From a virus: 29,979 nucleotides of DNA. The position numbers and the translations under genes are program-made. The notes beneath the pieces are model-generated. The model saw only the letters and a program-made list of their open reading frames with translations, did no database searches and had not been told where the DNA came from. The stretch is taken from positions 1 through 29,979 of the IMG/VR virus record IMGVR_UViG_3300048444_000202, one strand, 5' to 3'. Of this stretch, positions 1,631-29,514 are shown one piece after another (positions within the stretch are counted from its first letter, which is position 1; each line of letters starts with the position of its first letter).

Positions 1631-1832
1631 TTGGGTCGTTTAACCTCCCGATAATACAGACGTTGAAGCCTCTGACTCCGACGCCTCCATGTTGAACATG
1701 ATGTGAATATACATCACTTGTGACTAAAAACCAAGAGTAATCCATTACGTTAAGCTTTGCTGGCAGATTTTCATACTCCTCGATACCAAACTGTTCTGCC
1801 AGAACATCTTCAAACAAAACGCTAATGTTCAT
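1533..1832 (-). CDS. hypothetical protein overlapping the regulator gene
   Basis: A 99-aa frame whose first 60 residues look protein-like (mixed hydrophobic and charged, a Trp, few rare codons). It has a weak ribosome site (GGAG, 11 bases before ATG). Its last 98 bases overlap the start of the MarR-like gene in another frame, and the promoter for that gene lies inside it. I do not recognise it. It may be a true early gene with a long overlap, a decayed gene, or a chance frame. Confidence 0.35.
   Translation of the reverse strand: MNISVLFEDVLAEQFGIEEYENLPAKLNVMDYSWFLVTSDVYSHHVQHGGVGVRGFNVCIIGRLNDPNETPELLTIEPSNQGATKGLHRLSFTDGLGVP
1706..1734 (-). promoter_or_regulatory. sigma-70-like promoter with embedded palindrome
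   Basis: On the minus strand: TTGGTT (1729-1734), 17-bp spacer, TATATT (1706-1711). The palindrome TCACAAGTGA fills 1714-1723 of the spacer, 2 bases before the -10. Transcription would start near 1698 and run into the MarR-like gene. Confidence 0.6.
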
Positions 1833-1862
1833 CTATTATTGTTCTCCAACAAAGTCCATTCG

Positions 1863-1985
1863 TTAAACACAATAGCCACGCTTCAGGGCGCGTGATTGCT
1901 TGCGAAGCTTCCGAAACTTCTTGCTGTCCTTGTTCAATTTATCAACAACGCAGCCTGATGAAATATAAAGGGATTTTTTGGTCAT
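1863..1985 (-). CDS. small basic hypothetical protein (40 aa)
   Basis: A 40-aa lysine/arginine-rich peptide beginning MTKKSLYISSGCVV and ending RALKRGYCV. It has a strong ribosome site (TTGGAGGA, 5 bases before ATG), which is the main reason to accept it. It follows an operator-like palindrome (2028-2037). T7-like early regions carry many such tiny host-interaction genes. I do not recognise the family. Confidence 0.6.
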   Translation of the reverse strand: MTKKSLYISSGCVVDKLNKDSKKFRKLRKQSRALKRGYCV

Positions 1986-2027
1986 GTCTATCCTCCAAAA
2001 ACCGTTTGACCGAATAATAACCATTTA

Positions 2028-2037
2028 TCACTTGTGG
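2028..2037 (-). promoter_or_regulatory. operator-like palindrome, imperfect
   Basis: The minus strand reads CCACAAGTGA, one mismatch from TCACAAGTGA, between the terminator at 2046-2063 and the 40-aa gene. A weak -10-like TATTAT lies downstream but I find no good -35, so this is called an operator site rather than a promoter. Confidence 0.5.
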
Positions 2038-2045
2038 GTATTGAA

Positions 2046-2063
2046 AGGGGCAAAAACGCCCCT
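2046..2063 (-). terminator. hairpin terminator after the 143-aa gene
   Basis: On the minus strand AGGGGC pairs with GCCCCT around a GTTTTT loop and is followed by TTCAATA, starting 12 bases beyond the stop of the gene at 2076-2507. The short T tract makes it a weak terminator. It splits the early region into two units. Confidence 0.55.
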
Positions 2064-2075
2064 ATATCTGTTCAC

Positions 2076-2507
2076 TTATAAGCTATGTTCAGCCTTCTTT
2101 TTATGGCTTCCTAATTCAGCCTGAACCATGACGATGCCCTTCAGGAACAACGCTAGGCTCTCTCCTTTGAAGTGAAGCTTCCCTTCAGCCTCTCTAATCG
2201 CAATCATTGAGACGTACTTCAAGCCAATCAGCATCCGCTTCTCTCCTTGACTCATTCCTCGCTCATCCATTTCAGTTAGGTCACGGAACGCTTGTGAGAA
2301 CAACTCGCTCAACTCCTCGCGCATTGCGTGATAGTCCTTCAGTGACTCGTCGTCTCGCAACAGACCTTGCGTGTCGGTCATAATAGTGACCATGATGTCG
2401 AAGTCTCGCGGCACACCTTCAAGCTGACGTGAAGTTTTAAGTAAGGCTCGCGCCACGTTGCGGTTAACAGTCTCATTGAATAGGATGTTGTTAGTCTCGT
2501 TGTTCAT
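2076..2507 (-). CDS. hypothetical early protein (143 aa)
   Basis: I do not recognise this protein. It is predicted to be mostly helical, with no signal peptide or membrane segment and a mixed-charge C-terminus ending in a lysine run. A good ribosome site (GAGGAG) precedes the ATG. It is the last gene of the early unit before the hairpin at 2046-2063. Its position suggests an early host-takeover or anti-defence role, but nothing in the sequence shows a specific function. Confidence 0.75.
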   Translation of the reverse strand: MNNETNNILFNETVNRNVARALLKTSRQLEGVPRDFDIMVTIMTDTQGLLRDDESLKDYHAMREELSELFSQAFRDLTEMDERGMSQGEKRMLIGLKYVSMIAIREAEGKLHFKGESLALFLKGIVMVQAELGSHKKKAEHSL

Positions 2508-2529
2508 TGTTATATATCTCCTCGTTTAA

Positions 2530-3024
2530 TTAAGCTGCGTCAGAATATGTACCGTAGAACTCACCGCTCTCGTAGAAGCCCCAATCGTTCGCTTCACATA
2601 GCTCGATGAAGTAATCCATGCTGTCCTGCCATTCCATGTCCTTGATGATGTCTTGCGTAGCTTCCTCTAAGACACACTGGATAGCCCATTTGATGTCTCC
2701 GTCCTCTCGCACCACCTTCTTGAAAGTCTCAAGCATTGAGCACTCCAAGTAGTACCCTGTCAGAGTCTCTGGCAAGTCCTTCAGCCTGAAGCCTCGGATA
2801 TGCTCTTGAGTAATCTCCTCACACTTCAGGTATGAGTAGGCATAAGGACTTAGGCTATAGTCAGTCAGGCTCAACCCGAACAGACTTAGGAACTCCCGAA
2901 CGGTGTCGATTGATTCATCTATCCAGTGATACTCACCGTTAGCTCTCCATTGCTCGTGAGCGTACTCCTTAGCAGAATCATCCAGCTCATTGATGGTGCA
3001 GATGTTCATTGTTACCTGTTTCAT
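2530..3024 (-). CDS. acidic early hypothetical protein (164 aa)
   Basis: A 164-aa acidic protein (by hand, about 36 D/E against 13 K/R). The N-terminal INELDDSAKEYAHEQWRAN resembles a motif recurring in phage and plasmid proteins of unknown function, often starting 'L-x-D-x-A-K-x-x-A' and followed by aromatic-rich acidic sequence. Some such proteins carry a toxin-antitoxin label in databases, which I do not regard as evidence. The gene starts 2 bases after the upstream stop, so the two are translationally linked. The acidity and the ArdA gene nearby suggest a DNA-mimic or anti-defence role, an inference only. Confidence 0.75.
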   Translation of the reverse strand: MKQVTMNICTINELDDSAKEYAHEQWRANGEYHWIDESIDTVREFLSLFGLSLTDYSLSPYAYSYLKCEEITQEHIRGFRLKDLPETLTGYYLECSMLETFKKVVREDGDIKWAIQCVLEEATQDIIKDMEWQDSMDYFIELCEANDWGFYESGEFYGTYSDAA

Positions 3025-3026
3025 GG

Positions 3027-3467
3027 TTAGGCTACCTCTTGCTTGGTTTGTCCGATTAGTGAGCCAGTGCCGTACACTTGGCCTTGATTGAAGATCGCAG
3101 AGTCAGTCTTGAAGACCTCATGGGTCTCACCGTTAACGACCGTCTGGAAGTAATCATGCGTGTATGGGTTATATGTGATACGGAAGTCTTCAGAGCCTTT
3201 CGGCTTGTTACGGAAGATTCCTACGACAACCGCATGGACGTACTTCTTGCCCTCTCTACGTACCTTGTCGCGTGTCTTCTCACCTACCCGATACTCGGCA
3301 TTAAGAAGCTGGAATCGAGCGTCTAGCGGAACGTGAGCCACCACCTTTCCGTAGTGCTCACCTTCCATTGCTTTAACCGAGAAACAGTTCTTGGTCAGGT
3401 TGCGGTAGATAGCTACACGCATCCCCTCAATGTTCATGCGCTGCGCTCTTGCGTGATAGTCCTTCAT
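3027..3467 (-). CDS. hypothetical early protein (146 aa)
   Basis: A 146-aa protein with central strands (VVAHVPLDARFQLL, KKYVHAVVVGIF) and a C-terminal part rich in G, T and Q. It looks like a small folded beta protein with no membrane segment. It resembles early proteins of unknown function in other phages, but I cannot name the family. The start codon overlaps the stop of the upstream gene (TAATG), which implies translational coupling. In contrast to its neighbours it is not acidic. Confidence 0.75.
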   Translation of the reverse strand: MKDYHARAQRMNIEGMRVAIYRNLTKNCFSVKAMEGEHYGKVVAHVPLDARFQLLNAEYRVGEKTRDKVRREGKKYVHAVVVGIFRNKPKGSEDFRITYNPYTHDYFQTVVNGETHEVFKTDSAIFNQGQVYGTGSLIGQTKQEVA

Positions 3468-4018
3468 TACGCCACCTCCAGTTCTTCTTTCAATTCAGCG
3501 TATAACTCATTGATAGCTTGGTGGTTGGCGCGATAGACCACGTTCAAGTCAAGCGCTAGGTAGCAGTCCAGAGTGGCTGTCTCTCCATATTTACGGATGT
3601 CTCCCACCGTCCAGTCTGTCTCACTCTCGATATACGCCTTGACCGCTTCAGCTTCAGCCGATGGCACGTCAATTTGCGTGTACTCCTCGGACACAAAGAA
3701 TGACGCTAGGATGTTCCCAATGGATGTCAGGTAGTACCCACCGACAGTCTCAATGTCCATGTAGCCAGTAGGATTCTCGATGATAGTCTCGCTGATACGG
3801 TCTAAGATGTCCTCGCTTAATGACTCACCATCCGCTAAGGCTTCCCATTCACGCAACACAAACTCGATAGCTTGATGCCAGTTGTCAGCGCGTAGTGCGT
3901 AGTCGTCTGCTAGTAGCTGGTCGTAGTTGCTTGTGTAGTCTGTATCATCCTCGAATAGGTACTCCTCATAGTTGGTTAGGATTGATACAGATTCCTTGAA
4001 TAGGTCTAGTTGTTTCAT
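3467..4018 (-). CDS. very acidic early protein, possible DNA mimic (183 aa)
   Basis: I chose the start at 4018 (MKQLDLFKES) because TGGAG lies 6 bases before it; an ATG 12 bases upstream has poorer support. By hand count the protein has about 41 D/E and only 10 K/R, a net charge near -30 in 183 residues. Acidic clusters such as FEDDTD and LKEELEV are spread along it. Strong uniform acidity, no cysteine motif and position next to ArdA suggest a DNA-mimic anti-defence protein. No family was recognised. The gene has its own operator-bearing promoter at 4078-4107 and couples to the next gene by TAATG overlap. Confidence 0.75.
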   Translation of the reverse strand: MKQLDLFKESVSILTNYEEYLFEDDTDYTSNYDQLLADDYALRADNWHQAIEFVLREWEALADGESLSEDILDRISETIIENPTGYMDIETVGGYYLTSIGNILASFFVSEEYTQIDVPSAEAEAVKAYIESETDWTVGDIRKYGETATLDCYLALDLNVVYRANHQAINELYAELKEELEVA

Positions 4019-4077
4019 GGTTAGCTCCATTCGTTAGTTAGTAGGTATATTCAGAGGCACTGACACCAATGCCCCTT

Positions 4078-4107
4078 GATATACTCACTTGTGAGACTAC
4101 TTAACAA
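4078..4107 (-). promoter_or_regulatory. sigma-70-like promoter with embedded palindrome
   Basis: On the minus strand: TTGTTA (4102-4107), 18-bp spacer, TATATC (4078-4083). The palindrome TCACAAGTGA (4085-4094; 12 bp, CTCACAAGTGAG, with flanks) ends one base before the -10. The -35 overlaps the ArdA stop codon. Transcription would begin near 4070 and feed the gene at 3467-4018 and those after it. Confidence 0.65.
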
Positions 4108-4610
4108 GCGTGAAAGTAATGGCCGCGAGAGGTCGAATGGTCTACCATTAGGTCTCGTGCTACACCTTCCCAATCAATGTGGCACTCAATCCAAGCTGGT
4201 AGTTCTTCAGGTAGGTAGCCGACCTCCTCGGTTAGCTCTTGAGCAAAGTCAGCGTCACTAGCGTATGAGCCGACATAGCGATCTTCCGCTTCCTCTGGCT
4301 CAAAGCCACACTCCATTGCCGCTAAGATGATGTCCTCGTCTAAGTGAGAGCTGCTGACTACCTCATTGAATTGCCATAGCTCCTCGCTTAGGCCGTACTC
4401 GTGGTAGAATCCGTCAGGTATCCCCTCGACATCACCAAGAATCCATTCCTCGCAAAGACGGTCGTACTTCTCGGAGAGTTCAGCAAGCCAGTCCTGTAGC
4501 TCCTCCATGTGTTCGTCTTTGGTCAGTCCTTCAATGTCGAACCAGCGGCCTTCCAGTACGCCCTCGTTGTATAGTCCTAGTTCCCAATAATGTACTCGCA
4601 TGGTTGTCAC
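4101..4610 (-). CDS. ardA: ArdA-family antirestriction protein
   Basis: This 169-aa acidic protein matches the ArdA plan. The N-terminal YNEGVLEGRWFDIE corresponds to the family's 'Y-N-x-G-x-L-x-G-x-W' motif. A central EEWILGDVEGIPDGFYHEYG follows. The later segment LTEEVGYLPEELPAWIECHI with WEGVARDL matches the conserved 'Y-I-D-x-E-A-x-A-R-D-L' end. ArdA dimers mimic bent B-form DNA and block type I restriction enzymes, typically right after DNA entry, which fits its place near the start of the early region. A ribosome site (AAAGGTG) precedes the ATG. An operator-like palindrome lies immediately upstream at 4624-4633. Confidence 0.85.
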   Translation of the reverse strand: MTTMRVHYWELGLYNEGVLEGRWFDIEGLTKDEHMEELQDWLAELSEKYDRLCEEWILGDVEGIPDGFYHEYGLSEELWQFNEVVSSSHLDEDIILAAMECGFEPEEAEDRYVGSYASDADFAQELTEEVGYLPEELPAWIECHIDWEGVARDLMVDHSTSRGHYFHAC

Positions 4611-4623
4611 CTTTAATTTATGT

Positions 4624-4633
4624 TCACTTGTGA
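4624..4633 (-). promoter_or_regulatory. operator-like palindrome upstream of ardA
   Basis: A perfect copy of TCACAAGTGA on the minus strand in the 27-base gap between ardA and the preceding gene. A -10-like CATAAA follows but no -35 is visible, and transcription would start almost at the ribosome site. It therefore looks like an operator or road-block rather than a sigma-70 promoter. Confidence 0.55.
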
Positions 4634-4637
4634 GTAA

Positions 4638-4826
4638 TTAAGATACACGAATGCTAAGCAGAATCTTATTAGCAGTAGTGTCGCAGCCGATAGACCGTAG
4701 GTAGTCCACATGACTCGCTAGGTCTTTCAGTTTGTCTTTACCAATTACAGCCCAATTCCAGATACCATCCCCTAGCAAAGTGTAGGTATGTTGTCCATTA
4801 GGACGTAGACGGATACGTGCTTTCAT
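4638..4826 (-). CDS. small early hypothetical protein (62 aa)
   Basis: The first early gene after the leader region: 62 aa, basic, soluble, starting MKARIRLRPNGQHTYTLLGD. A very good ribosome site (AAGGAGG, 8 bases before ATG) supports it. It is transcribed from the 5020-5047 promoter behind a boxA-containing leader. I do not recognise the family. The location matches T7 gene 0.3-type early host-takeover genes, but that is position only. Confidence 0.75.
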   Translation of the reverse strand: MKARIRLRPNGQHTYTLLGDGIWNWAVIGKDKLKDLASHVDYLRSIGCDTTANKILLSIRVS

Positions 4827-4920
4827 TAGTGTTGCCTCCTTCAGTTAATCTTAATTCAGGCCACTCTCTGAATGACCTGTAGTTAAGACCACTGAACAAT
4901 CAACCACAGACGTTTACCAA

Positions 4921-4933
4921 ATTGTTAAAGAGC
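4921..4933 (-). promoter_or_regulatory. rRNA-type boxA antitermination element (second)
   Basis: The minus strand reads GCTCTTTAACAAT, within GAACGCTCTTTAACAATTTGG. This matches the boxA of gammaproteobacterial rRNA leaders (TGCTCTTTAACAAT) over 13 bases, and also resembles lambda boxA (CGCTCTTACACA). It lies in the leader of the early transcript, 10 bases after a hairpin and about 95 bases before the first early gene. BoxA is bound by NusB-NusE (S10), which makes RNA polymerase resist termination. Confidence 0.75.
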
Positions 4934-4943
4934 GTTCACCTAT

Positions 4944-5009
4944 CCAGCTCCGTTGCTGGTGGCATAGAACCCTAAGGTTCTTCTTTCGGTCACTTGAAGC
5001 TCTCGCTTC
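4944..5009 (-). ncRNA. early leader RNA with three hairpins before boxA
   Basis: On the minus strand three short perfect hairpins follow each other: GAAGC-GAGA-GCTTC (4996-5009, GNRA-like loop), AGAACC-TTAG-GGTTCT (4966-4981) and CCAGC-AACGGA-GCTGG (4944-4959). The predicted start of transcription is near 5012, so the first hairpin is the 5' end of the RNA. They may stabilise the message, serve as RNase III sites, or act as the boxB part of an antitermination signal. Confidence 0.5.
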
Positions 5010-5019
5010 GATGGTTTCC

Positions 5020-5047
5020 ATTCTACTCACTTGTGAACATTTGTCAA
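5020..5047 (-). promoter_or_regulatory. main early promoter with embedded operator
   Basis: On the minus strand: a consensus -35 TTGACA (5042-5047), 16-bp spacer, TAGAAT (5020-5025). The palindrome TCACAAGTGA (5027-5036) ends one base before the -10. This is the best sigma-70 promoter I see and would drive the early genes. A protein bound to the palindrome would block polymerase directly. Confidence 0.75.
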
Positions 5048-5169
5048 CTGTTTTTTGCCTCGCTTCGTGTCGGTGTTGGTATCAGGCCGCGACCGTATCC
5101 GCTTTAACGATTATCAGGGTTTAACTCCTTTATGCTGTCTAGGCTCAGTCTAATAATCGCTTGGCTGTC

Positions 5170-5189
5170 AGTGACTTAATGCTGTCACT
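5170..5189 (-). other. hairpin after first boxA
   Basis: AGTGAC and GTCACT pair around an eight-base loop in the putative early leader RNA, about 20 bases after the first boxA. Confidence 0.35.
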
Positions 5190-5209
5190 ATGAGTCATTA
5201 AGAAACCAG

Positions 5210-5243
5210 TTGTTAAAGAACAAGTGAAGCGTTGATTTGCTTC
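5210..5243 (-). promoter_or_regulatory. hairpin plus rRNA-type boxA antitermination element (first)
   Basis: On the minus strand a hairpin GAAGC/GCTTC (5226-5243) is followed three bases later by TGTTCTTTAACAA (5210-5222), which is 12 of 13 identical to the rRNA boxA TGCTCTTTAACAA. The hairpin-then-boxA order is that of rRNA leaders, not of lambda nut sites. Its transcription must begin upstream, perhaps near the operator at 5283-5292. Confidence 0.65.
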
Positions 5244-5282
5244 GTTGTCGTTGGCTCTGTGCCGCTGACGTTTTCTACTGTC

Positions 5283-5292
5283 TCACAAGTGG
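5283..5292 (-). promoter_or_regulatory. operator-like palindrome upstream of first boxA
   Basis: The minus strand reads CCACTTGTGA, one mismatch from the palindrome and with the TT centre. TTGCAA lies 12 bases before it, but no good -10 is at the right distance, so a promoter here is uncertain. Confidence 0.45.
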
Positions 5293-5460
5293 TTATTGAT
5301 TGCAAGCGGTTAAAACAAAAAAATTCAGGTGAAGTAGCTAAGTGACTGTTTTTGATCGGATTTTAGTTTTCTGTCAGTTGTCTGTCAGGTTGGCCGTTCT
5401 TTATATGCGTGTAGTGTGATTGAGAAAACCGATTTATGCGGTAGGTTGTCATTGAGATAG

Positions 5461-5551
5461 TCGATTAGAAAACTACAGGGTCTTTCACCTGTATGAGTCA
5501 ACCAAACCGATTAAACCAGAAGAATCTAATCGACTTTATCAATCAATTAGA
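5461..5551. repeat. three copies of TCTAATCGA / TCGATTAGA
   Basis: TCGATTAGA lies at 5461-5469, its inverse TCTAATCGA at 5525-5533, and a one-mismatch TCAATTAGA at 5543-5551. The last two form an imperfect inverted repeat. The role is unknown; a protein-binding site in the genome-end region is possible. Confidence 0.35.
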
Positions 5552-6005
5552 CTCAAAGGGTTTCTTAATCCCTCCTAAGTCCTTATAAAACAGTGACTTA
5601 GCGATTCTGTCAGCTTCTTTTTGTGGTCTTCTTGGTCTTTCGGTTGTCATTCGGCAGTCAGGGAGGCCACGGGGGGAACTCCGCGTACCTCTATGTCGAT
5701 TTGGCCTCACAGATTTTTGTACCAAAACTTTTCGACCTCTGCAAGACCATCTGTCAGATTATCTGTCAGACCGTCTCAGCGATCTCCTACAGCCTTCTCT
5801 AGCACCTCCCTTCTGTCAGATACCTTAAAGATACTTAAAGGCTCTGAGAGCTTCTGAGAGGCTTATATCTAGGTACATAACTTAGTTAATTTACTCTAGC
5901 TGTTCATCTAGTACTTGACTTGGTGAGTGAGCGGTAGCGAGCGAACCCAAGTCATTGTCGAGTTGTTGACCGAAAACGTCACATTGAGCCAACTAATAGA
6001 TAAAC

Positions 6006-6048
6006 AAAAAAGCCCTAACGACAGCAGGAGGAAACTATACGTTAGGGC
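6006..6048 (-). terminator. intrinsic terminator after large terminase
   Basis: On the minus strand GCCCTAACG pairs with CGTTAGGGC across a 19-base loop and is followed by six T residues. It lies about 140 bases beyond the terminase stop, at the expected end of the late transcript, and separates late from early transcription. Confidence 0.75.
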
Positions 6049-6115
6049 AAACACAGGAGGTTAACAACAATGAACAAACAATGGAGGTAGACAGTCTTAT
6101 AGATAGTCTTAGAGA

Positions 6116-6147
6116 TTTTCTTTTTCTTTTTCTTTCCCTTTCCCCCC
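6116..6147 (+). repeat. 32-base pure pyrimidine tract
   Basis: An unbroken run of T and C just beyond the terminase stop codon, changing from T-rich to C-rich and ending in six C residues. Such tracts can form triplex or unusual DNA structures. Its role here is unknown. Confidence 0.5.
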
Positions 6148-6188
6148 ATATGTCAGGGAGTCATTAACCTGTTGTTTTATAAAGGTTT

Positions 6189-7859
6189 TTACCAGCTACA
6201 CCAAGTGGCCTGTTGACGGTCTCCAAGACCTCCTTGAGCATTCTCAATGAAGTCTCTAAGTTCCTGTTCTAACAGTTCTTCTTGGCGCTGCTTCTCCAGT
6301 AACTTAGCGTCTGCATCCATCTGTTCATTCCAGTACTGAACCATTATTGATAAACAGTCCAGCCTGTCATCGTGTCTCAGTGCTCCACGCTCATCTGTAA
6401 GACGAGCCATTTGATAGAACAGAGAGTACGATGGGTCTTTCTCAGTTGACTCAGCGTCATCAATGATAACTCGTGGGTCAACGATTAGACGGTGCTGCAT
6501 GAGTACTGGTTCGAGTGTGTCAATGATACGTTTCTCTTTCTGCTGTTGGTGTTTGACCTCACTTATCGTGCATGGATAAATACGGTTCAACCAAGGCTTC
6601 AACAGCTGCATGAACATACCGTCACCGAAGTTACCCTCAATGACAATCTCATGGACTCTGTGTGCCTTAGCGACATTCGCTAGGTGTCGTAGAGTTGCAT
6701 CTGAGTAACCGTCTCGGAGACCTCGTGACTCTGGAACAAAGATATATCCATTGAGCATATAACCCACACAGTAAGCAGTTTCGTCCTTACCACGCCCTGA
6801 GGGGTCGATAGCGAGGACTTTTCCTGTGTAAGGCTGTCTACCCTCTCCTATCCACATTGGACGGTAATAGCGATCTCCTGCGAGGCCGTGAAGGGGTAAA
6901 TCAGTGTGTTGTAGGTCTCGCTTAGAAGACCAAGCGAACTCTGTTGGAGCTTCTTTAGGATGTACCTCAGTGACAATCAGGTCACTAAGCTTCAATGGGT
7001 ATTTATCTGCGTCAGCCAAGCTCGTGTCCAACATGAACTGCAAGGCGAAGCCAGCTTTACCGTATGACAGGTAGCGCTCCTCCAAGTCAGCATCAGAGAA
7101 TCGTTTCGGGTCAGTGGTATGCCCTGTGGCACACTCTAAGTTCAAGATATAAGGCGCTAAACGGCCTTTGTAAGACGCTATTTCTTCTTCCGAAGGCATA
7201 CGTGCAGGCCACACTCTAATCTCGTAGCCACGCTCCTCTAGGTTGTTATATAGCGACATTTCAGTCTGAGGCGTACCCAAGTAGATGATTCGTGAAGTTG
7301 GGAGGGGCTTGAGAATCGCATCAAACTCTTTGACCAGCTCAGATAGTTTATCTCGTGCGTCCTGTGTTGCTGAGTTATTAAGAACCTCAATATCGTCAGC
7401 GATAATCATGTCTGCACGACTACCTGTAAGCTGTCCAGTAATACCGACCGACTTCACCGATGGTGAGTGGTCTGAAGTGGCAGGAGCGACATCGAAGGAC
7501 ATCATTGAGTTCCGTTGGTCGGCTCTAGGAGCTAAGTGTTGTAGGAACTCGACCTCGCTAATGAGTCGCTTGGTGAAGATTGAGAAGTTGTCAGCGCGGT
7601 CTTTACTTGCTGATACAACCATTATTTTCAGTTGTGGGTTTCGATATAAATTCCACACCACAAAAGCAGATGTAATCCAAGACTTGCCTACGCCTCGGAA
7701 AGCTTCAATCACACATCGTTTAGGCGCTTCTTGCAGATACTTGGCAATGTCATACTGAAGTGGTGTGGGGTCTGGAAGATTAAGGTGCTTCCAGATTAGA
7801 TAGAGAAAATATCGAAAGTCCGATTTGACCTTTTGTTCTAATTCTTGTTCGGTACTCAC
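6189..7859 (-). CDS. large terminase subunit (T7 gp19-like, DNA maturase B)
   Basis: This 556-aa motor and nuclease packages phage DNA into procapsids (T7 gp19: 586 aa). The ATPase part shows Walker A FRGVGKS (54-60), Walker B ADMIIADDIE (149-158) and the coupling motif IIYLGTPQTE (191-200). The RuvC-like nuclease part shows D352 in AIDPSG, E408 in VIEGNFGDG and the aspartates of RHDDRLD (497-501). The start is GTG, chosen because GAGGT lies 5 bases before it. A palindromic operator lies 19 bases upstream. It is the last late gene before the terminator. All motifs are intact. Confidence 0.95.
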   Translation of the reverse strand: MSTEQELEQKVKSDFRYFLYLIWKHLNLPDPTPLQYDIAKYLQEAPKRCVIEAFRGVGKSWITSAFVVWNLYRNPQLKIMVVSASKDRADNFSIFTKRLISEVEFLQHLAPRADQRNSMMSFDVAPATSDHSPSVKSVGITGQLTGSRADMIIADDIEVLNNSATQDARDKLSELVKEFDAILKPLPTSRIIYLGTPQTEMSLYNNLEERGYEIRVWPARMPSEEEIASYKGRLAPYILNLECATGHTTDPKRFSDADLEERYLSYGKAGFALQFMLDTSLADADKYPLKLSDLIVTEVHPKEAPTEFAWSSKRDLQHTDLPLHGLAGDRYYRPMWIGEGRQPYTGKVLAIDPSGRGKDETAYCVGYMLNGYIFVPESRGLRDGYSDATLRHLANVAKAHRVHEIVIEGNFGDGMFMQLLKPWLNRIYPCTISEVKHQQQKEKRIIDTLEPVLMQHRLIVDPRVIIDDAESTEKDPSYSLFYQMARLTDERGALRHDDRLDCLSIMVQYWNEQMDADAKLLEKQRQEELLEQELRDFIENAQGGLGDRQQATWCSW

Positions 7860-7877
7860 GTTGACCTCGATTTATAC

Positions 7878-7887
7878 TCACAAGTGA
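7878..7887 (-). promoter_or_regulatory. operator-like palindrome upstream of terminase
   Basis: The minus strand reads TCACTTGTGA inside CTCACTTGTGAG, 18 bases before the terminase GTG. TTGACA (7896-7901) and TATAAA (7871-7876) flank it, but the 19-base spacing is long and the start of transcription would fall in the terminase ribosome site. It is therefore more likely an operator, a road-block or a phage-polymerase promoter. Confidence 0.5.
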
Positions 7888-7911
7888 GACATCCCTGTCA
7901 ATAAAAATCCT

Positions 7912-8076
7912 TTAGATTACGTCAGTCTTCTCCACTACCTCTTTGACGACTTCGAGAGCCTTGTCATCAAAGTCAGTGTCAGTGCGTTTAACCAACACTT
8001 CTGCTGCTTCCAAAAGCAGTTTCTTAACAGCAGCGGTCTTGAACATTTTCAGTAAGAAGTTCATTACGAAAGGCAT
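7912..8076 (-). CDS. small hypothetical protein (54 aa)
   Basis: A 54-aa protein starting MPFVMNFLLKMFKTAAVKK, with an amphipathic N-terminal helix and an acidic/basic C-terminal helix ending VVEKTDVI. The ribosome site is clear (AGGAG, 7 bases before ATG). It sits between the two terminase subunits, where T7 has its spanin genes 18.5 and 18.7. The hydrophobic N-terminus might associate with membrane but is too short and charged for a sure membrane segment. No family was recognised. Confidence 0.6.
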   Translation of the reverse strand: MPFVMNFLLKMFKTAAVKKLLLEAAEVLVKRTDTDFDDKALEVVKEVVEKTDVI

Positions 8077-8093
8077 AGTTATTCTCCTATTGG

Positions 8094-8306
8094 TTAGTGT
8101 GGATGTGCTTCATCGAATGACGGTAAGGTATCTGCAAGCTTTCCTAGCGCATTGTCACGTTTCGGAATGCCTGTAATACCGTTGTCATTCAGGAATTGAC
8201 GAGCTACGTTGAGTTCTTGGCTTGTTGCTTCTCCAGACTCGATACGCTCAAGAAGCTCTGTGCCAAGTTTCTCGTGTAGCTCAGCGAAAAGGCGGTCTAA
8301 GTTCAT
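8094..8306 (-). CDS. small terminase subunit-like protein (T7 gp18 position)
   Basis: A 70-aa helical protein. The segment GEATSQELNVARQFLNDNGITG resembles small terminase (DNA maturase A) proteins of marine T7-like phages, which recognise the phage DNA and hand it to the large subunit. T7 gp18 is 89 aa, so this one is short. The ATG overlaps the stop of the HNH gene (ATGA), and the large subunit follows after one small gene, close to T7 order. The assignment rests on this motif and on position. Confidence 0.7.
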   Translation of the reverse strand: MNLDRLFAELHEKLGTELLERIESGEATSQELNVARQFLNDNGITGIPKRDNALGKLADTLPSFDEAHPH

Positions 8307-16543: not shown

Positions 16544-16545
16544 TC

Positions 16546-21788: not shown

Positions 21789-22291
21789 TAGTCACCTCCT
21801 TCCCCGCTTCCTGAAAGTTCTTGAGCAGCCATTCCAGCAACGAACCCTGCACCAGCTCGCATGAAGATTCCGCTGATTGATTCAGGCTTGTAGTTCTCAG
21901 TGGAGTACAGACGTGCTTGATATGCGTTGCGGTTACTGCTCTCGTTGATTCTCCGTTTAGCGTCAGCATCATCACGCGCCACAGAGATTGCTTCAGACGC
22001 TTGGAGGTCGATGTCTTTCATACGAGCAGCCACACTTGCTCCACCTATGTTTGACGAAGTGGCTGAAGCCTGTGCAGCGCCTTTTAGCTGTAGAGCCTTT
22101 CGTCCAGTTTCAGACTGTCGCTCTACAGACCTTTTGTTTTGCAGAATTGTCTCAGTTCCTTCAGCTTTACTCTTTGCTGAGCGGTTGAGCGCGTCTGCTT
22201 TAGTTTGTTGATTAAATGCTTTAGCCTCTTGATTCCTTGAGTAAAGATCGCTGGCAACCTGCATTACTGCCATAGCAGCTAGAACCCACAT
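21788..22291 (-). CDS. internal virion protein, T7 gp14-like
   Basis: A 167-aa core protein (T7 gp14: 196 aa). It has a short hydrophobic N-terminus (MWVLAAMAVMQVASDLYSRN), a polar middle rich in A, S, K and E, and a glycine-rich hydrophobic C-terminal part (IFMRAGAGFVAGMAAQ). T7 gp14 inserts in the outer membrane as the first part of the ejection channel. Its start lies within the end of gp13 (13-base overlap) and its end couples to gp15 (TAATG). Confidence 0.8.
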   Translation of the reverse strand: MWVLAAMAVMQVASDLYSRNQEAKAFNQQTKADALNRSAKSKAEGTETILQNKRSVERQSETGRKALQLKGAAQASATSSNIGGASVAARMKDIDLQASEAISVARDDADAKRRINESSNRNAYQARLYSTENYKPESISGIFMRAGAGFVAGMAAQELSGSGEGGD

Positions 22292-22707
22292 AAATCTCTC
22301 CCCATTACATAGAACCCATTGGCTTTTATGTCAGTCACAGCGAAGCCGAGACGCTTCAGCCAACGGATAGTTTTAGAGTTGTCTTTGTGTATGTTGTTGT
22401 AGATGTAATCGCCAAACTCCGAGTACTCTTGCAGCATCTGGAAAGAGAGCTTCAGGAAGGTCTTCTTGTGTTTCTCGATTTCAGGCGTAGACAGCATCCA
22501 TCCGCAATCGTCTCCATAACCTGAAATGGCAATGGGCTTACCATCTGCCTCAGCGTAGTGAACAATGTCGCTATGGTTGATTGAGTAATGGATGACTGCC
22601 TCAATAGGCCAGTCTGGAAACACAAGCCCTACTTCCGTCTTATCCCATTCTTTCAGATTCTCAGCAAGGTAAGGCACGAAGTCGGCTGTAGGACTTGTCA
22701 ATTCCAT
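22279..22707 (-). CDS. gp13-like protein with GNAT-type fold
   Basis: I chose the start at 22707 (MELTSPTADFVPYLAENLKE) because AAGGAG lies 6 bases before it and the ATG overlaps the gp12 stop (TAATG). At 142 aa it matches T7 gp13 (138 aa), which is needed for virion maturation though not clearly present in the mature particle. The sequence resembles an acetyltransferase: central ADGKPIAISGYG, and IHKDNSKTIRWLKRLGFAV near the end matches the GNAT acceptor-binding segment (N-x-x-x-I-R-x-L-x-x-x-G-F). Confidence 0.8.
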   Translation of the reverse strand: MELTSPTADFVPYLAENLKEWDKTEVGLVFPDWPIEAVIHYSINHSDIVHYAEADGKPIAISGYGDDCGWMLSTPEIEKHKKTFLKLSFQMLQEYSEFGDYIYNNIHKDNSKTIRWLKRLGFAVTDIKANGFYVMGRDLCGF

Positions 22708-25472
22708 TAACTTCTCCTTGCTCTGTTGTGATATAAGCCTTCCCATTCACCTGACTGGATTCGGCAATCAAACGGTGAGTCATTGAATATCTCAACGACC
22801 ATGCCCTTTGCTCGTCCGAACAGAGGAACAGTAAGAGTACCGCTGTCAACAGGAATACGGCCTATACGTTGAGTCACTGAGCCAAGCACACGGCCTTCGT
22901 AGTGAGTAACACGTTCTTCACGAGCCTCTTGCTTGACCTTGACATCGAATGAGGTGGTCTCATCGAAGTTCAGCGTCAAACGTCTAAGTTGTAGTCTTCC
23001 TGTCTGTACTGTTCGGTTGTTACCGTCACGTAGGTAAATCTGAGTCAGGATTGTTCGCTGGACATAAGGATAACCAACAAACTTTCTGCCCTTGTAGACG
23101 ACCTCAGACATACCTTCAGGAGTGGTTGATTCAGTCGGTATCTCCTGTCGCTGGTCAAGGAACACAGGAACTCCTAGATTGTCGCGTAGACTGTCTTCAG
23201 AAAGGTTCATCACCTCGCAGTAATACTTACCGTCAAGATGTGTCACCATGTAAGCAACTGAACCTTCAATCTCAATATCAAGTACATCCTGCTTGAATGT
23301 CCAAGTGTTCCAAGCAGAGTGAACCTTTTCAGTTCCTTGGGTCTTGTGGCTATACTGGTAAACCTCGCTACCTTCACCTTCCAGAGTGTCAGGAAGAACT
23401 AGGAGAACGTCTTCAGAGCCACTAGGAGCAAGCTTACGGATTCTTCCACCCACATATTCAGGAACGTGAGCTGTGACATCCATAGCTTCGTGCTGTTCAT
23501 CCTGTACGTGAGACTCAAAGATACCGTTGAACTTCTCTCGGTTAACCACGAAGAACACTGAGTTACCGACATACTGAGGCTGAGCTGATAAGTCCACGTC
23601 ATAACTGGCAATAGGGTCAGCCCAAACAGTAGCTGCTGAGAATATGTCGCCTGATTTCAGCGAGTACTGCTGTCTACTTCCGTAAAGGATTAGCTCTTTC
23701 TGTGCAGATACCATGCCCTTAATCGGGTTCACGACTTGTGACAAGACGCTAATGTCAATCGGGTCAGAGTCTTTAATTGTCTGAGCGGTTGTCCTGAAGA
23801 AGTTCCAGTAGTTACCAGCTTCACTAAAAATGATGTTCTCATCACTTGCGAACACAAGCCGATTCTTGTGGAATGTCATTGCGTGGATGTATCGTAGTTG
23901 AGTCGGTACGTTGTTTTCAAAATCCCACTCTGATACAAACGAAGGAAACGGAGTAGCATCGTTGTCGCCTACCTCTCGTTCATCCCATTCAGCCTCTTTG
24001 AACACAAAATGTATTCCAAGTGGATTGTCAGGGCTAATATATGCTTCGCTCGCGTCACGAACCATTACGTGAGGCATACTGGTCGCATCAAGTATGTGCA
24101 TTTCATCAGGTGCTCTTGACTCCTCCCAATGACCTTGACCGCCTTCACCTGTCTGGATGAACTTAACCCAATAACCGTTACCTTCATCCTCAACTGAGCC
24201 TACAATTTTCACTAGGAAACCGTCTGGAGCTTTACTAGGTAAGTCAGAGAACAGCTGTGCTTTCTCGTGGACAGCGACAAAAGCCTGTCCATTTAAGTCA
24301 TCATCAGCACTGACTGAAAGCTCACTTCCATCACTCGTTTTGACCGTGAAGTATCCGTTGCCTAACTGAGCTTCAATAGGAGCTGAACTAGCGTTAACCT
24401 TACTCACAATCGAACTCATAATTGATTGAATGCTCAGGCCAGCCCTAGCTCTCTCAGCGGTTGCCTCAGGAGTGGTGTGACTGAATGACATACCGTTCAC
24501 ATGGAGACGATAAGTCACGTTATAGTCAGCCTGTCTGACATGGCAAAGAGCTGAAGTCTCCTCAGACAAGAGGTTAATCGCAGCAGATGTCTCTTTTCGT
24601 GATATTACCTCGTAGTCCGTTGGATACCATTGGTCAATGACAAGTCTCGTGTAGGCATAACTGAAGTCATAAAGAGGTATCGGGTCTAATGTTTCAGGAT
24701 AATCAACGTAAATGATGTTACTTGAGACATAGAACTTGTAGTCAGCGTAAGCAGGGTCTGACTCGTAGTGCTCTTTAACCTTCTGTGCGATCTCCGATGG
24801 AGAAGTGTTCTCAGTTTCCTCAAGAAAGTAAGTATTACCGTCAGAGAACTTGTAGGAAGCTAAAGGCTGTCTAGGAACACGTCTGTTGTACTTGTTGTAC
24901 GGGTCGTAAGGGTCACGATAAAAGTCTTCTTCATATAGACGTTCATAAGACGAAGCGTCAGGGTAGTTGAAGTGACCTATTGTTATCGCTTCTCGCTTAA
25001 AACCATCAGCTGTAGTGACAATGCCTGTGGTACGCATTACTGGCTGAGTCTTATTTAGTATGTACGTTGTATCAGCACTTGTTAGAGCCTGATAAGACAT
25101 ACGAGAGTTCTCAGCTTCACCTGACAGTTTCAGGTAGTTAACAGGACTGACATTGTTAGCGTTCGATTGGTTTACCACTGGATAACTGAAGCCAGTGTTA
25201 CGGTCGTACACGCTGATACCACTAGGTTTAATGGTCAGGATGTACTGCTCGTATCGGTCTCGTTTGATTTGGTGGATATACGCATCATTCAGCGAACCAT
25301 CCCCTACATCCAACTCTGACAAGTACACAGTGTTTGGACGCTTACGCATACCCTGTGTGATTGAGTTAAGGCAGTTCTCTTGGAACTCAACCTGAGTCGG
25401 AAGACGTTGACTAGGGGCTTGCTGAGAGACACCACCAATCAATGAAGGGAATGATTGTGAAATTAGCGTCAT
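22707..25472 (-). CDS. tail tubular protein B, T7 gp12-like (nozzle)
   Basis: A 921-aa protein in the gp12 position (T7 gp12: 794 aa), which forms the tail nozzle and holds the fibres. The N-terminus LISQSFPSLIGGVSQQAPSQ is a recognisable start for this family, followed by the 'R-x-P-x-T-x-V-x-L-N/Q' type region. About 130 residues longer than T7's, it may carry inserted surface domains; the region about 310-430 looks like such an insertion. The ATG overlaps the stop of gp11 (ATGA). Confidence 0.9.
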   Translation of the reverse strand: MTLISQSFPSLIGGVSQQAPSQRLPTQVEFQENCLNSITQGMRKRPNTVYLSELDVGDGSLNDAYIHQIKRDRYEQYILTIKPSGISVYDRNTGFSYPVVNQSNANNVSPVNYLKLSGEAENSRMSYQALTSADTTYILNKTQPVMRTTGIVTTADGFKREAITIGHFNYPDASSYERLYEEDFYRDPYDPYNKYNRRVPRQPLASYKFSDGNTYFLEETENTSPSEIAQKVKEHYESDPAYADYKFYVSSNIIYVDYPETLDPIPLYDFSYAYTRLVIDQWYPTDYEVISRKETSAAINLLSEETSALCHVRQADYNVTYRLHVNGMSFSHTTPEATAERARAGLSIQSIMSSIVSKVNASSAPIEAQLGNGYFTVKTSDGSELSVSADDDLNGQAFVAVHEKAQLFSDLPSKAPDGFLVKIVGSVEDEGNGYWVKFIQTGEGGQGHWEESRAPDEMHILDATSMPHVMVRDASEAYISPDNPLGIHFVFKEAEWDEREVGDNDATPFPSFVSEWDFENNVPTQLRYIHAMTFHKNRLVFASDENIIFSEAGNYWNFFRTTAQTIKDSDPIDISVLSQVVNPIKGMVSAQKELILYGSRQQYSLKSGDIFSAATVWADPIASYDVDLSAQPQYVGNSVFFVVNREKFNGIFESHVQDEQHEAMDVTAHVPEYVGGRIRKLAPSGSEDVLLVLPDTLEGEGSEVYQYSHKTQGTEKVHSAWNTWTFKQDVLDIEIEGSVAYMVTHLDGKYYCEVMNLSEDSLRDNLGVPVFLDQRQEIPTESTTPEGMSEVVYKGRKFVGYPYVQRTILTQIYLRDGNNRTVQTGRLQLRRLTLNFDETTSFDVKVKQEAREERVTHYEGRVLGSVTQRIGRIPVDSGTLTVPLFGRAKGMVVEIFNDSPFDCRIQSGEWEGLYHNRARRS

Positions 25473-26101: not shown

Positions 26102-26115
26102 GCAACAGACCTCCG

Positions 26116-26153: not shown

Positions 26154-26164
26154 GGGGTTATTGA

Positions 26165-27202: not shown

Positions 27203-27239
27203 GTATTTGACCTTTTTTGTTGTTATTAGTGGTTAATGA

Positions 27240-27249
27240 TTACAAGTGA
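27240..27249 (-). promoter_or_regulatory. operator-like palindrome upstream of capsid gene
   Basis: The minus strand reads TCACTTGTAA, one mismatch from the palindrome, in AATACTCACTTGTAATC. It lies in the 51-base gap between scaffold and capsid genes at the T7 phi10 position. No sigma-70 boxes fit. It shares CTCACT with the T7 promoter core, so it may be part of a phage-polymerase promoter rather than an operator. Confidence 0.4.
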
Positions 27250-27253
27250 GTAT

Positions 27254-27976
27254 TTATAGGAATTTAGAGCGCTCTAATACTTCATTTCGGTATGCTTCAC
27301 CGATTCGGTCTTGACGCTTGTATCGAGGGTCTTTCATTGCCTCAATCATTTCGTCTTGAGAGTTGAAGTACTTACTAGCAGCAGGCTTGCCACCAGTAAT
27401 TAAAGAGCCTTCGTTGATGTTTGAGTCAGATTGTTGCTGCATGGAGGCGAACTTCTGCATAAGCTCGACCGCAGCTATTGCTTGCTCTGGAGTGCCTTCA
27501 GTCAGAGCCACGTTGAGCAATTCTTGTTGAGTCTCATTGAGTTGTCCTTCGACTGACTCACGAAGTTTCTCATAAGACTCTTTACCGCCAGCAGCGGCAT
27601 AAATCTTCTCGGTTGTGAGCTGGTCTTCTAGCTCTCGAACACGGCGCTCAAGCTCTGAGTCTTCACCTTCAGGTTCTTCTTCAGTCTCCTCAGATTGTTC
27701 CTCAGTCTCGGCTTCTTGTTCTTCAGAGCCTTCTTCAGCTTCACTGGATTCTTTCTCTTGCTGAGCCTTCCAAGCGGCTAACAAGTCGTCCATAGAGACT
27801 CCTTCAGGAAGCTCTACAGAATCGCTTTGCTCTTGCTCCTGTTCTTCTTCAGGATTGTCATTCAGGGAAGCTAGAGCATCGTTTTCTAATTCAGATTCAG
27901 GCTGCACCGAGTTATCGTGTGCGTCGATCATTGCTTGGTCATACTCAGGTGTGCCTGCTTTAGGTTTCGTTGACAT
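27254..27976 (-). CDS. capsid assembly scaffolding protein (T7 gp9-like)
   Basis: A 240-aa acidic scaffold (T7 gp9: 307 aa). The first half is extremely acidic with E/Q runs (about 40-115), followed by helical segments. The C-terminal YKRQDRIGEAYRNEVLERSK is basic and probably contacts the capsid shell, as in other scaffolds. It has a ribosome site AAAGGAGGG before the ATG. It lies between portal and capsid genes as in T7. Confidence 0.9.
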   Translation of the reverse strand: MSTKPKAGTPEYDQAMIDAHDNSVQPESELENDALASLNDNPEEEQEQEQSDSVELPEGVSMDDLLAAWKAQQEKESSEAEEGSEEQEAETEEQSEETEEEPEGEDSELERRVRELEDQLTTEKIYAAAGGKESYEKLRESVEGQLNETQQELLNVALTEGTPEQAIAAVELMQKFASMQQQSDSNINEGSLITGGKPAASKYFNSQDEMIEAMKDPRYKRQDRIGEAYRNEVLERSKFL

Positions 27977-27996
27977 TAACCCTCCTTTAAGAAAGT

Positions 27997-28023
27997 CCAG
28001 ACGTAGCTAGGCCAGAGGTCTGG
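27997..28023 (-). other. intergenic hairpin between portal and scaffold genes
   Basis: On the minus strand CCAGAC pairs with GTCTGG across a 15-base loop, in the 53-base gap before the scaffold's ribosome site. It lacks a long T tract, so it could be an RNase III site or a small attenuator. T7 processes many intergenic hairpins in this way. Confidence 0.3.
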
Positions 28024-28029
28024 AGCATA

Positions 28030-29514
28030 TTATTTACGCATCATTTGAGGAGCAGCTTGCATTGCAGCGTTCATCGTTGCGTTCTGGTTCTGCTCTTGTT
28101 GACGTTCTTCTTCGGTCTTGATGAGACCCTTGGTGTCGAGGTTGGTAGCTGTGGCTAGACGCTTCATGTATTCCTCTACATTCAGGTACTGAGGAATCAC
28201 GTCTTGACCCATCGGCTGTAAGAAGTTAAGGAACATCTGGAGCTTCTGTAGCTCACTTGAGCGCCCCATTGCTTCTACACCAGTCAAGATTCGAGGCTTG
28301 ATGCCTTCAGGAAGCTTCTCGATTTTCTTCTCGTCCTGAAGACGAGCAACAACTGTACTCACAAGTGGGAGTTGTAGTTCCAAAGCTAGAAGCGAATACA
28401 CACCGCCAAGTGTGGCTTCGAGTTCGTTAGTTAGCGTTCGGATTTCTTCAGCTGTAACTCGTTCAGCGTCTCGCTGCACTGAGCTTGTCATCAAGAATGA
28501 CTGAGCTAACGCTTGTTCAAGGATGGAGATTCGTTCAGTTGTCATTCGCAAGTCAGCGAACTTATCTAACTGCAACGCTTGAACATCATCACGATTACCA
28601 GCAATGAAGTCACCGTTAGGCGCTTCACGTAGCTGTTTAATCTTCACTGCGCTGTTAGGCTTCACTAGGAACAAGATACGAGCAGCCGCAGCAGATGCTT
28701 CAGTCAATGATTTAGTCAGTGATTCAAGGCCGTGTAGGTCTCCCATGTGTTCTTCCACATAAGAGCGTCCGTAGTCCTCACCATCGTTTGCAATCATCCG
28801 CAAGGCAATCCAAGGGAGTGCTTCAGGCTTGTAGGTAGACTGAGAGCCTTCTACGACATTACTGCCGATTTCCTGTTGTAGCTTATAGCGCTTACCAGCT
28901 TTTCGGATGATTGTGTAGACATTGACTGTGTTGTCGTCAGCGATAGTGTCTGCCTCAGGGTCTTGTGTGACTAGGGCAGCTTGTTCTTCAGTCAGGTTGT
29001 CTTTATCGACAGCCTCTTTAATGATGATTAGCTCAACCTTACCTTCGTGGTCACGTTTCACAACGTACTTATCAAGGCGGTACAATTTCAGAGCGTCTTT
29101 ACCCACGTACAGTAGAGTGTTACCACCTACGAGTAACTGCTTCAGACCTTCGTAGAGCTTAGTTCGAGCTGCCTTCTGTTCGAGTCGGCTAGACACCATA
29201 GACTCGATTGACATTAAGGCTTCTTCGATTTCACCCTTGGTAGCGTCTGGTAAGTTCACACCAATCTCAGACTCGTCTACTGACATCTTGAAGAACGGTG
29301 TGTTCGGTGGAAACATTGCAAGTAACAGTTTCGCAGCAAGGCTTTTTACAGCTCGTGCGCCTGTTCCTTGGTACGGTACGTGATAGTCACCCTTCTCATG
29401 TCCTTCATCAGGGAATAGAGAGGGAATTGTTAATGCAGCTGCTGCCCTTGCTCGACTTAGATAGTGATCGCGGTCACTCTCAAGTTTTTGGTACAAGGAC
29501 TTAGCTGTCGCCAT
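28030..29514 (-). CDS. portal / head-tail connector protein (T7 gp8-like)
   Basis: A 494-aa portal (T7 gp8: 536 aa), the dodecameric gate through which DNA enters and leaves the head. The start motif MATAKSLYQKLESDRDHYLS and the segment LFPDEGHEKGDYHVPYQGTG with ARAVKSLAAKLLLAMFPPNT match the family well. The C-terminal part is helical and ends in a glutamine/asparagine-rich tail. The start overlaps the previous gene by 14 bases, with GGAGG 5 bases before the ATG. Confidence 0.95.
   Translation of the reverse strand: MATAKSLYQKLESDRDHYLSRARAAAALTIPSLFPDEGHEKGDYHVPYQGTGARAVKSLAAKLLLAMFPPNTPFFKMSVDESEIGVNLPDATKGEIEEALMSIESMVSSRLEQKAARTKLYEGLKQLLVGGNTLLYVGKDALKLYRLDKYVVKRDHEGKVELIIIKEAVDKDNLTEEQAALVTQDPEADTIADDNTVNVYTIIRKAGKRYKLQQEIGSNVVEGSQSTYKPEALPWIALRMIANDGEDYGRSYVEEHMGDLHGLESLTKSLTEASAAAARILFLVKPNSAVKIKQLREAPNGDFIAGNRDDVQALQLDKFADLRMTTERISILEQALAQSFLMTSSVQRDAERVTAEEIRTLTNELEATLGGVYSLLALELQLPLVSTVVARLQDEKKIEKLPEGIKPRILTGVEAMGRSSELQKLQMFLNFLQPMGQDVIPQYLNVEEYMKRLATATNLDTKGLIKTEEERQQEQNQNATMNAAMQAAPQMMRK
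28359..28368 (-). promoter_or_regulatory. palindrome copy inside portal gene
   Basis: The minus strand reads CCACTTGTGA, one mismatch from the palindrome, within the portal reading frame. No promoter boxes surround it. It may be chance or a transcription road-block site. Confidence 0.2.

Follow-up and report, generated by a model that had tools for sequence, protein, structure and literature searches.

The 29,979 nt IMG/VR virus record IMGVR_UViG_3300048444_000202 (the window, meaning this whole stretch at its full length) carries a repeated palindrome, TCACWWGTGA, upstream of and between genes that lie on its minus strand. The palindrome set is real, and our reading, to which we assign a probability of roughly 80%, is that its members serve as operators for a lysogeny repressor that the prophage itself encodes, a MarR-like winged-helix protein (1298-1630, minus strand). 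The computed basis for this reading comprises the sites themselves, their intergenic enrichment, their promoter geometry, the predicted MarR fold of the protein, parallel palindrome sets in relatives, and a correlation of the palindromes with repressor clade. An initial annotation of the window had proposed a phage-wide operator set; the operator reading is supported by the intergenic enrichment, by the promoter geometry, and by the independent sets in relatives.

Number and placement of the palindromes

All nine copies listed by the initial annotation, five exact and four with one mismatch, were recovered, and a tenth was found at 23842. The exact copies (1714, 4085, 4624, 5027 and 7878) are all intergenic; the one-mismatch copies begin at 2028, 5283, 27240, 28359 and 23842. 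Compared with shuffled controls, as the initial annotation had suggested, the exact copies are enriched in the window, where 0.22 ± 0.46 copies would be expected; a count of five was not reached in any of 100 shuffles. The strong signal is the placement of the copies with at most one mismatch, their number being unremarkable. In particular, only 8.5% of the window is noncoding, and all five exact copies fall there (p = 4.6e-6), together with 8 of the 10 copies with at most one mismatch (p = 1.1e-7), or 7 of 10 (p = 1.8e-6) if a doubtful open reading frame (ORF) at 1533-1832 is counted as coding. When two mismatches are allowed, 12 of 53 copies are noncoding (p = 0.0015). Further, a de novo motif search across the window's 16 intergenic gaps returned CTCAC-N2-GTGAG as its top motif, which none of 40 shuffles equalled.

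The spread of the copies is narrower than "phage-wide" would imply. Seven of the eight intergenic copies lie within the first 8 kb and the copy at 28359 is inside the portal gene; the single late intergenic copy, at 27240-27249 (minus strand), has one mismatch and begins 4 bases past the scaffold stop codon, ahead of the major capsid gene.

Promoter geometry

At 1714, 4085 and 5027, the initial annotation had described a palindrome that ends one or two bases before a -10 hexamer, the classical geometry of a repressor site. That observation was borne out and extends to 7878 and 4624, so that five copies end 1-2 bases before a -10-like hexamer in the direction of the genes (minus strand), four of them with promoter scores of at least 8 out of 12. 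The exact copy at 5027-5036 has the highest score (11), filling the spacer of TTGACA-16-TAGAAT (5047-5020), which is the strongest early sigma70-like promoter and the best match of that kind anywhere in 1-8200. The exact copy at 7878-7887, in the 52-base gap ahead of the large terminase gene, belongs to TTGACA-19-TATAAA (score 10, spacer 19). At 1714-1723, an exact copy overlaps the predicted promoter of the MarR-like gene (score 8); its first base is 93 bases upstream of the ATG and the -10-like TATATT lies 2 bases downstream. The exact copy at 4085-4094 (score 8) lies 6 bases past the stop codon of an ArdA-like gene and ahead of the 3467-4030 gene, with TATATC 1 base downstream.

The remaining noncoding copies are more varied. 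The exact copy at 4624-4633 lies 4 bases past the stop codon of ORF 4638-4826, ahead of ardA, and has CATAAA 1 base downstream; its score of 6 does not exceed the 6.5 averaged by random positions. The one-mismatch copies at 2028-2037 (CCAC-AA-GTGA in the gene direction), upstream of ORF 1863-2024, and at 27240 both reach a score of 8 in another register, and the copy at 5283-5292 (CCAC-TT-GTGA in the gene direction), in the end region upstream of the early genes, scores 7; all of these candidates are on the minus strand. Overall, 6 of the 8 noncoding copies score at least 8, compared to 14% of random noncoding positions, and only 2% of random positions score at least 10.

The MarR-like protein

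The proposed repressor matches phrog_9665 (E = 4e-19) and PF12802 (MarR_2; E = 5.4e-6), the latter at 26.9 bits, just under the cut-off of 27. Its AlphaFold2 model, calculated with 29 homologues from the fetched loci, has a predicted local distance difference test score (pLDDT) of 94.2, and the solved structures that Foldseek listed for this model are of the MarR family, with MepR as the best match (E = 2e-4) and a TMq of 0.73 for a MepR-DNA complex. This MarR-fold protein is encoded beside a tyrosine integrase (241-1260, minus strand). In a tblastn search with the regulator, 28 phage records yielded distant relatives at 25-34% identity, and for 24 of these the annotation reads (MarR-type) transcriptional regulator; peptide-pattern scans with the regulator and with the integrase found no relatives.

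Large plasmids from Alteromonas, Vibrio and Niveispirillum also encode relatives of the MarR-like protein (L146, 19989-20297; L147, 19884-20261; L148, 19875-20324; L149, 19818-20258), three of the four having no annotated gene there; their best E value, 2e-13, is below that of any phage match, in a different collection. Rhizobium phage I20 (L164) encodes two MarR-like proteins, at 18392-18742 and 21621-21968. In the T7-like Desulfovibrio phage ProddE (L161), which has an integrase, the record annotates a CI-like repressor (4867-5637) between the integrase and RNA polymerase genes, a different solution in the same place.

Palindrome sets in relatives

The same arrangement of genes is found in other temperate T7-like phages. 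The order of early genes, MarR-like gene, integrase, RNA polymerase, replication, virion and terminase genes is common to HTVC019P, RHEph01, RHEph21, TRX32-1, CRP-804, Pasto, I20, LUZ100 and a Limnohabitans phage. In all nine, the MarR-like gene adjoins the integrase; in TRX32-1, whose record gives induction from a lysogen as its source, and in the Limnohabitans phage, it is annotated as hypothetical and was identified by sequence search. Recurrent near-palindromes were sought in the intergenic gaps of each record, as defined by our own gene caller, with 40 dinucleotide shuffles of that record as the control. Eight of the ten regulator-bearing records beat all 40 shuffles, namely the window and seven of the nine other phages, and the motifs differ among them: CTCAC-N2-GTGAG in the window, GTCAC-N6-GTGAC in Pasto, CACAT-N4-ATGTG in I20, ATCCA-N4-TGGAT/TGAAT in RHEph01, TRX32-1 and RHEph21, CTATC-N8-CATAG (i.e. 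CTATCCAC-NN-GCGCATAG) in LUZ100, and TCTCG-N4-CGAGA in the Limnohabitans phage.

Two lytic phages served as controls. phiKMV has no set (11 of 40 shuffles as good), and in gh-1 none of 40 shuffles was as good, but the motif returned is its phage promoter; because of this, the gap method alone is no proof of an operator. The method is unspecific, also returning phage promoters (gh-1, L022 and L048) and terminator-like stems (L052 and L054). Across partial loci with at least four gaps, a margin of more than 1.5 log units over the best of four shuffles was reached in 12 of 31 regulator-bearing loci and in 4 of 35 that lack the regulator. Moreover, the density of CACNNGTG is 0.65 per kb in gaps versus 0.25 in coding DNA where the regulator is present, a group that includes several related Rhizobium phages, and 0.27 versus 0.23 where it is absent. 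Its gap enrichment ranks third among 64 triplet palindromes in the former loci, behind two AT-rich ones, and 22nd in the latter. A palindrome search over whole regions without gene masking and a search seeded on palindromes ahead of terL, the large terminase gene, were underpowered, with coding repeats scoring equally well or better (the virion side of L085; L087); restriction to noncoding DNA or intergenic gaps worked better.

In relatives, the palindrome motif appears largely to follow the clade of the regulator, as judged by comparing a tree of 45 regulators with a scan of 44 records, whose gaps were searched for each of nine motifs; the near-identical rows L093, L056 and L057 were excluded from this cross-scan. 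The Rhizobium phage motif ATYCAC-NN-GTGAAT is strongly enriched in 8 of the 44 records, which are exactly the distinct members of one clade starred in the tree; HTVC021P has two copies, LUZ100 has one, and the other 34 have none. L013 and L052 supplied the definition of another motif, TTGCC-NAN-TGGMAA. Of the eight further rows in their clade (support 93/83, unstarred), six are enriched for it (L019, L032, L036, L037, L049 and L015), with a weak excess outside the clade in L009, L030 and L090; a small number of its sites entered the counts twice, at adjacent positions (7168/7169, 11648/11649 and 11728/11729). Likewise, GTTWCC-N4-AGTAAC, the motif of L009, marks L009, L085 and their sister L012.

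The window's own motif is nearly private: the window has four copies in its gaps, and elsewhere in the set of 44 records only L019 and L090 have it, once each. No sign of the window's set was seen elsewhere in the loci and viral contigs scanned. Among 143 loci (L001-L004 being pieces of the window), no other locus has more than two copies of TCACWWGTGA, and when any two centre bases are allowed, L087, L029 and L093 have three; a search for CTCACAAGTGAGTA found 44 viral-contig stretches with one match apiece.

Recurrent layout of the sites

The candidate operators recur in particular places: at early promoters, upstream of the regulator, and on both sides of the phage RNA polymerase gene. In LUZ100, the copies at 378 and 579 fall within the mapped host promoters P1 and P2, whose -10 lies inside a repeated GCGCATAAGATGCGC. 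Upstream of the regulator's ATG, the window's distance of 93 bases is near that of seven of eight members of the L013 clade (79-96 bases, with starts from our own caller; the L049 copy is weak), while AACCACGGGTGTAT lies 64 bases upstream in RHEph01, RHEph21 and TRX32-1 (at 3184, 1040 and 40937); in Pasto, no copy was seen upstream of the regulator. A site just ahead of terL, as at 7878 in the window, is also present in I20, RHEph01, TRX32-1, RHEph21 and LUZ100, and I20 has a weak copy with four mismatches ahead of its capsid gene.

The RNA polymerase gene is preceded by copies in RHEph01 and TRX32-1 (two each), I20, Pasto (three), LUZ100, L019, L032, L037 and L052, and by a weaker one in the Limnohabitans phage; RHEph21 has none at threshold. 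The stop codon of this gene is visible in 22 regulator-bearing records, in 13 of which the motif also rests on other sites. In 12 of these 13 (RHEph01, TRX32-1, LUZ100, I20, Pasto, the Limnohabitans phage, L009, L019, L032, L035, L049 and L052), a copy starts 3-5 bases past the stop codon, or 15 bases in Pasto; the motif used for L019, L032 and L049 came from other phages. RHEph21 has a degenerate copy alone at this place. The other nine records include near-palindromes there in L042/L053, HTVC019P/021P and CRP-804/403, and no clear one in L034, L048 and L094; the pelagiphage, Roseobacter and L042/L053 motifs were seeded on that very site and are leads only. Palindromes resembling CTATGCAC-NN-GTGSATAG, close to the LUZ100 site, also lie directly past the RNA polymerase stop codon in the pelagiphages L145 (7325) and L157 (7248), whose regulators group with that of LUZ100 at low support.

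Proposed mechanism and alternatives

The initial annotation named the MarR-like protein as the most likely ligand of the palindromes, and it is likely to be so, on indirect grounds: palindromes largely track the regulator clade in relatives, and the position of the copy upstream of its gene resembles that of the L013 clade. According to the proposed mechanism, a MarR-like homodimer would bind TCAC-WW-GTGA. In a lysogen, the repressor would sit on the sigma70-type early promoters at 5027 and 4085, and probably 7878, covering the spacer up to the -10, which would block the host RNA polymerase from starting the early transcript that leads to the phage RNA polymerase. Through the copy at 1714, it would tune its own gene. 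The contig stops before the RNA polymerase gene; we predict that the rest of the prophage has additional copies, both ahead of that gene and a few bases past its stop codon. Binding, dimer use, repression and the lysogenic state are what we infer from the computed results. Classical repression is the likeliest mode for the window's copies, because most of them look promoter-linked.

Several results weigh against this reading. The copies with at most one mismatch are not in numerical excess (10 versus 5.96 ± 2.76 expected, with at least 10 in 12 of 100 shuffles), which makes it probable that the two in-gene copies, at 28359-28368 (minus strand) within the portal gene and at 23842-23851 (plus strand) within ORF 22707-25472, a tail gene by its position, are there by chance. 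The window's regulator stands alone on a long branch with no close relative, so that its own pairing with the motif is putative. Motif discovery yielded no convincing set in HTVC019P (7 of 40 shuffles as good) or CRP-804 (1 of 40). In the cross-scan, L042 and L053 lack the TTGCC-NAN-TGGMAA motif of their own clade, while GTTWCC-N4-AGTAAC occurs outside its clade, with six copies in Pasto, whose own motif is similar, and three each in CRP-804, L032, L035 and L052. One prediction failed: the regulator of L095 groups with that of I20, yet L095 has no copies of the I20 motif, which itself could belong to either of the two I20 MarR-like proteins. Finally, L022 and L025, which have no regulator even at a weak threshold, carry similar near-palindromes past the RNA polymerase stop codon.

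It is rather unlikely that the sites work instead as stoperators, with the repressor also binding away from promoters and blocking an elongating polymerase across the prophage, as the repressors of L5-type phages do. The relatives furnish most of what favors this alternative. The intergenic copies of RHEph01 (12 of 14) and TRX32-1 (13 of 14) extend as far as the genes for capsid, internal virion proteins and terminase; 7 of the 12 and 7 of the 13 start 3-8 bases past a stop codon, and none of the 12 in RHEph01 has a promoter score above 8. Asymmetric copies point along transcription by 26 to 0 in eight related records, a count that pools related phages and does not represent 26 independent events. 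Among ten LUZ100 copies (leaving out 13197, in the DNA polymerase gene), only those in P1 and P2 score 10 out of 12, the other eight scoring 5-7. Sites of the L5 clade, as described in PMC6550527, are likewise mostly off promoters and transcription-oriented, with motif distance tracking repressor distance. The window itself has copies at 4085, 4624 and 27240 that begin 4-6 bases past a stop codon, but its intergenic copies are concentrated in the first 8 kb and are mostly promoter-linked, rather than spread off promoters over the whole genome, and its core is symmetric with a centre that alternates between AA and TT. Other relatives also depart from a genome-wide spread: within about 10 kb on the virion side of terL, copies of the phage's own motif (at most two mismatches) number none in L037 and L052, one in L019 and three in L049, and the intergenic copies of Pasto are confined to the early and RNA polymerase regions, with only two weak coding matches outside them. 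The stoperator analogy drawn by the initial annotation holds poorly for the window and better for RHEph01, LUZ100 and, by its spread, TRX32-1, where sites run through the genome, follow transcription and mostly lack promoters.

The palindrome could also be a promoter, or part of one, for the phage's own T7-type RNA polymerase, which is very unlikely. Motif discovery in gh-1 did return a phage promoter, one that also contains CCTCACT, and the window has no convincing separate phage-promoter motif, the candidate TTGTTCAGTGGTCT occurring in four gaps with a log p of -13.0 versus -9.9 in shuffles. On the other hand, RHEph01, LUZ100 and the Limnohabitans phage have a phage-promoter motif plus a separate palindrome at different places, and the window's copies are symmetric, have variable flanks and are concentrated ahead of early genes, most late genes having none; the single Limnohabitans-like promoter candidate, at 27224-27237, lies beside the 27240 copy and not in it (the pattern was derived from that place). 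Binding by a host regulator appears even less probable. It is common for host factors to bind short palindromes close to the early promoters of phages, but related motifs cross hosts (LUZ100, from Pseudomonas, shares ATCCAC-NN-G with Rhizobium phages), the Rhizobium phages I20 and RHEph01 differ from each other, and the motif follows the clade of the phage regulator. It is hardly credible that the palindromes act as RNA hairpins, as processing or termination signals, in place of DNA operators. Several copies do lie a few bases past stop codons or ahead of terminator-like stems, and loops might arise from the longer spacers of Pasto (6) and I20 (4); a two-base loop cannot close a hairpin, which makes the spacer of the window, RHEph01 and TRX32-1 too short, and the usual asymmetric ATCCAC-NN-GTGAAT would place C opposite A in the transcript.

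Relation to known systems

The proposed repression by the MarR-like protein at dispersed operators may be compared with classical operators of the lambda OR/OL type. Both have a palindrome between the -35 and -10 of early promoters and a copy upstream of the repressor gene; the present system differs in its single scattered sites, its MarR fold and the single-subunit phage RNA polymerase that lies downstream. The module of temperate Autographiviridae such as Pasto, HTVC019P and LUZ100 is the same as that of the window in its gene order, its MarR-like gene beside a tyrosine integrase, a tRNA-Leu at or near the integrase, and its T7-type virion genes. MarR-based control of lysogeny has been proposed for LUZ100 (PMC10134795), and the same paper, citing Boeckman 2022, relays the hypothesis that MarR sites flank a promoter upstream of the RNA polymerase gene in temperate T7-like phages. 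This bears on the remark of the initial annotation, which knew of no described stoperator-like system in a T7-like phage. The terms "operator", "palindrom" and "inverted repeat" are absent from the main text of PMC10134795. Our literature search found no paper combining Autographiviridae, lysogeny, MarR and operator, and any claim to novelty reaches no further than that search; Boeckman 2022 may overlap for Pasto. What the present analysis adds to the LUZ100 paper is the repeated palindromes themselves, the way they change from clade to clade, and the places where they recur.

The stoperators of L5 and other Cluster A phages are a further point of reference. In the account of PMC6550527, L5-clade sites are oriented with transcription, lie partly in promoters and mostly outside them, block elongation, include one upstream of the repressor gene, and change in step with the repressor. 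The Rhizobium phages and LUZ100 resemble them, with many off-promoter copies in one orientation, some copies in promoters, and a motif that tracks the repressor. They differ in having palindromic sites, a MarR-like protein, a T7-like phage background, and about 10-13 copies versus up to 30; the window's copies, moreover, are mostly promoter-linked. The operator set is more general than first noted: such sets are phage-specific in temperate T7-like phages, and a MarR-like repressor is their most likely reader. A bolder proposal is tentative, and we lean somewhat against it: temperate T7-like phages may own an independently evolved stoperator-like immunity, in which MarR-like repressors read phage-specific, transcription-oriented palindromes, often just past stop codons genome-wide and with a near-regular site after the RNA polymerase gene. 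Lysogeny would then silence both initiation and elongation by the host (perhaps phage) polymerase, operator and repressor would change together as in L5 phages, and the TCACWWGTGA set would be one version.

To explain the dormancy of T7-like phages, a MarR-like repressor has been proposed, with operator sequences not named in the main text of the LUZ100 paper (PMC10134795). For the window and for seven other phages, the palindromes offer concrete candidate targets on the DNA, and they suggest a rule for locating an operator, namely ahead of the MarR-like gene and a few bases beyond the RNA polymerase stop codon. They also provide several candidate repressor-operator pairs that apparently differ in specificity. 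The dormancy switch of temperate T7-like viruses would thereby become readable from sequence and their immunity groups could become predictable, which is relevant wherever a strictly lytic lifestyle is taken for granted in T7-like phages. If it is true that the late, promoter-less sites act on elongation, stoperators would have two separate origins.

Prophage setting and other features

The window is a portion of a temperate T7-like prophage. From right to left, it comprises portal, scaffold, capsid, tail and internal virion protein genes, the small and large terminase genes (the latter of T7 type, 6189-7859, minus strand), an end region, and early genes including the ArdA-like antirestriction gene (4101-4610, minus strand), which is flanked on both sides by an operator candidate; the MarR-like and integrase genes follow. 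Certain tail and internal virion genes were named by position alone. At the left end lies the 3' part of a tRNA-Leu (70-127, minus strand; anticodon TAA by eye), the predicted attachment half at the prophage end; ARAGORN found no complete tRNA in the window. The contig has no RNA polymerase or replication genes.

Further observations concern individual genes and the right end. The early gene at 3027-3467 has a strong Pfam match to "Mycobacterium phage L5 gene 82 protein" (PF25735, E = 7e-28). The right end (29870-29979) resembles DNA of an IS3-family transposase, with 73-78% identity to plasmid copies from Salinivibrio, Shewanella, Vibrio and others in the 8 records listed out of 16, and may mark an interruption of the prophage or a contig break at an insertion. 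Within the tail region, a 2336-codon ORF (9197-16207) contains recurrent GCTG/CAGC palindromes at 13353-15546, four of which are GCTGAACCGTCAGC.

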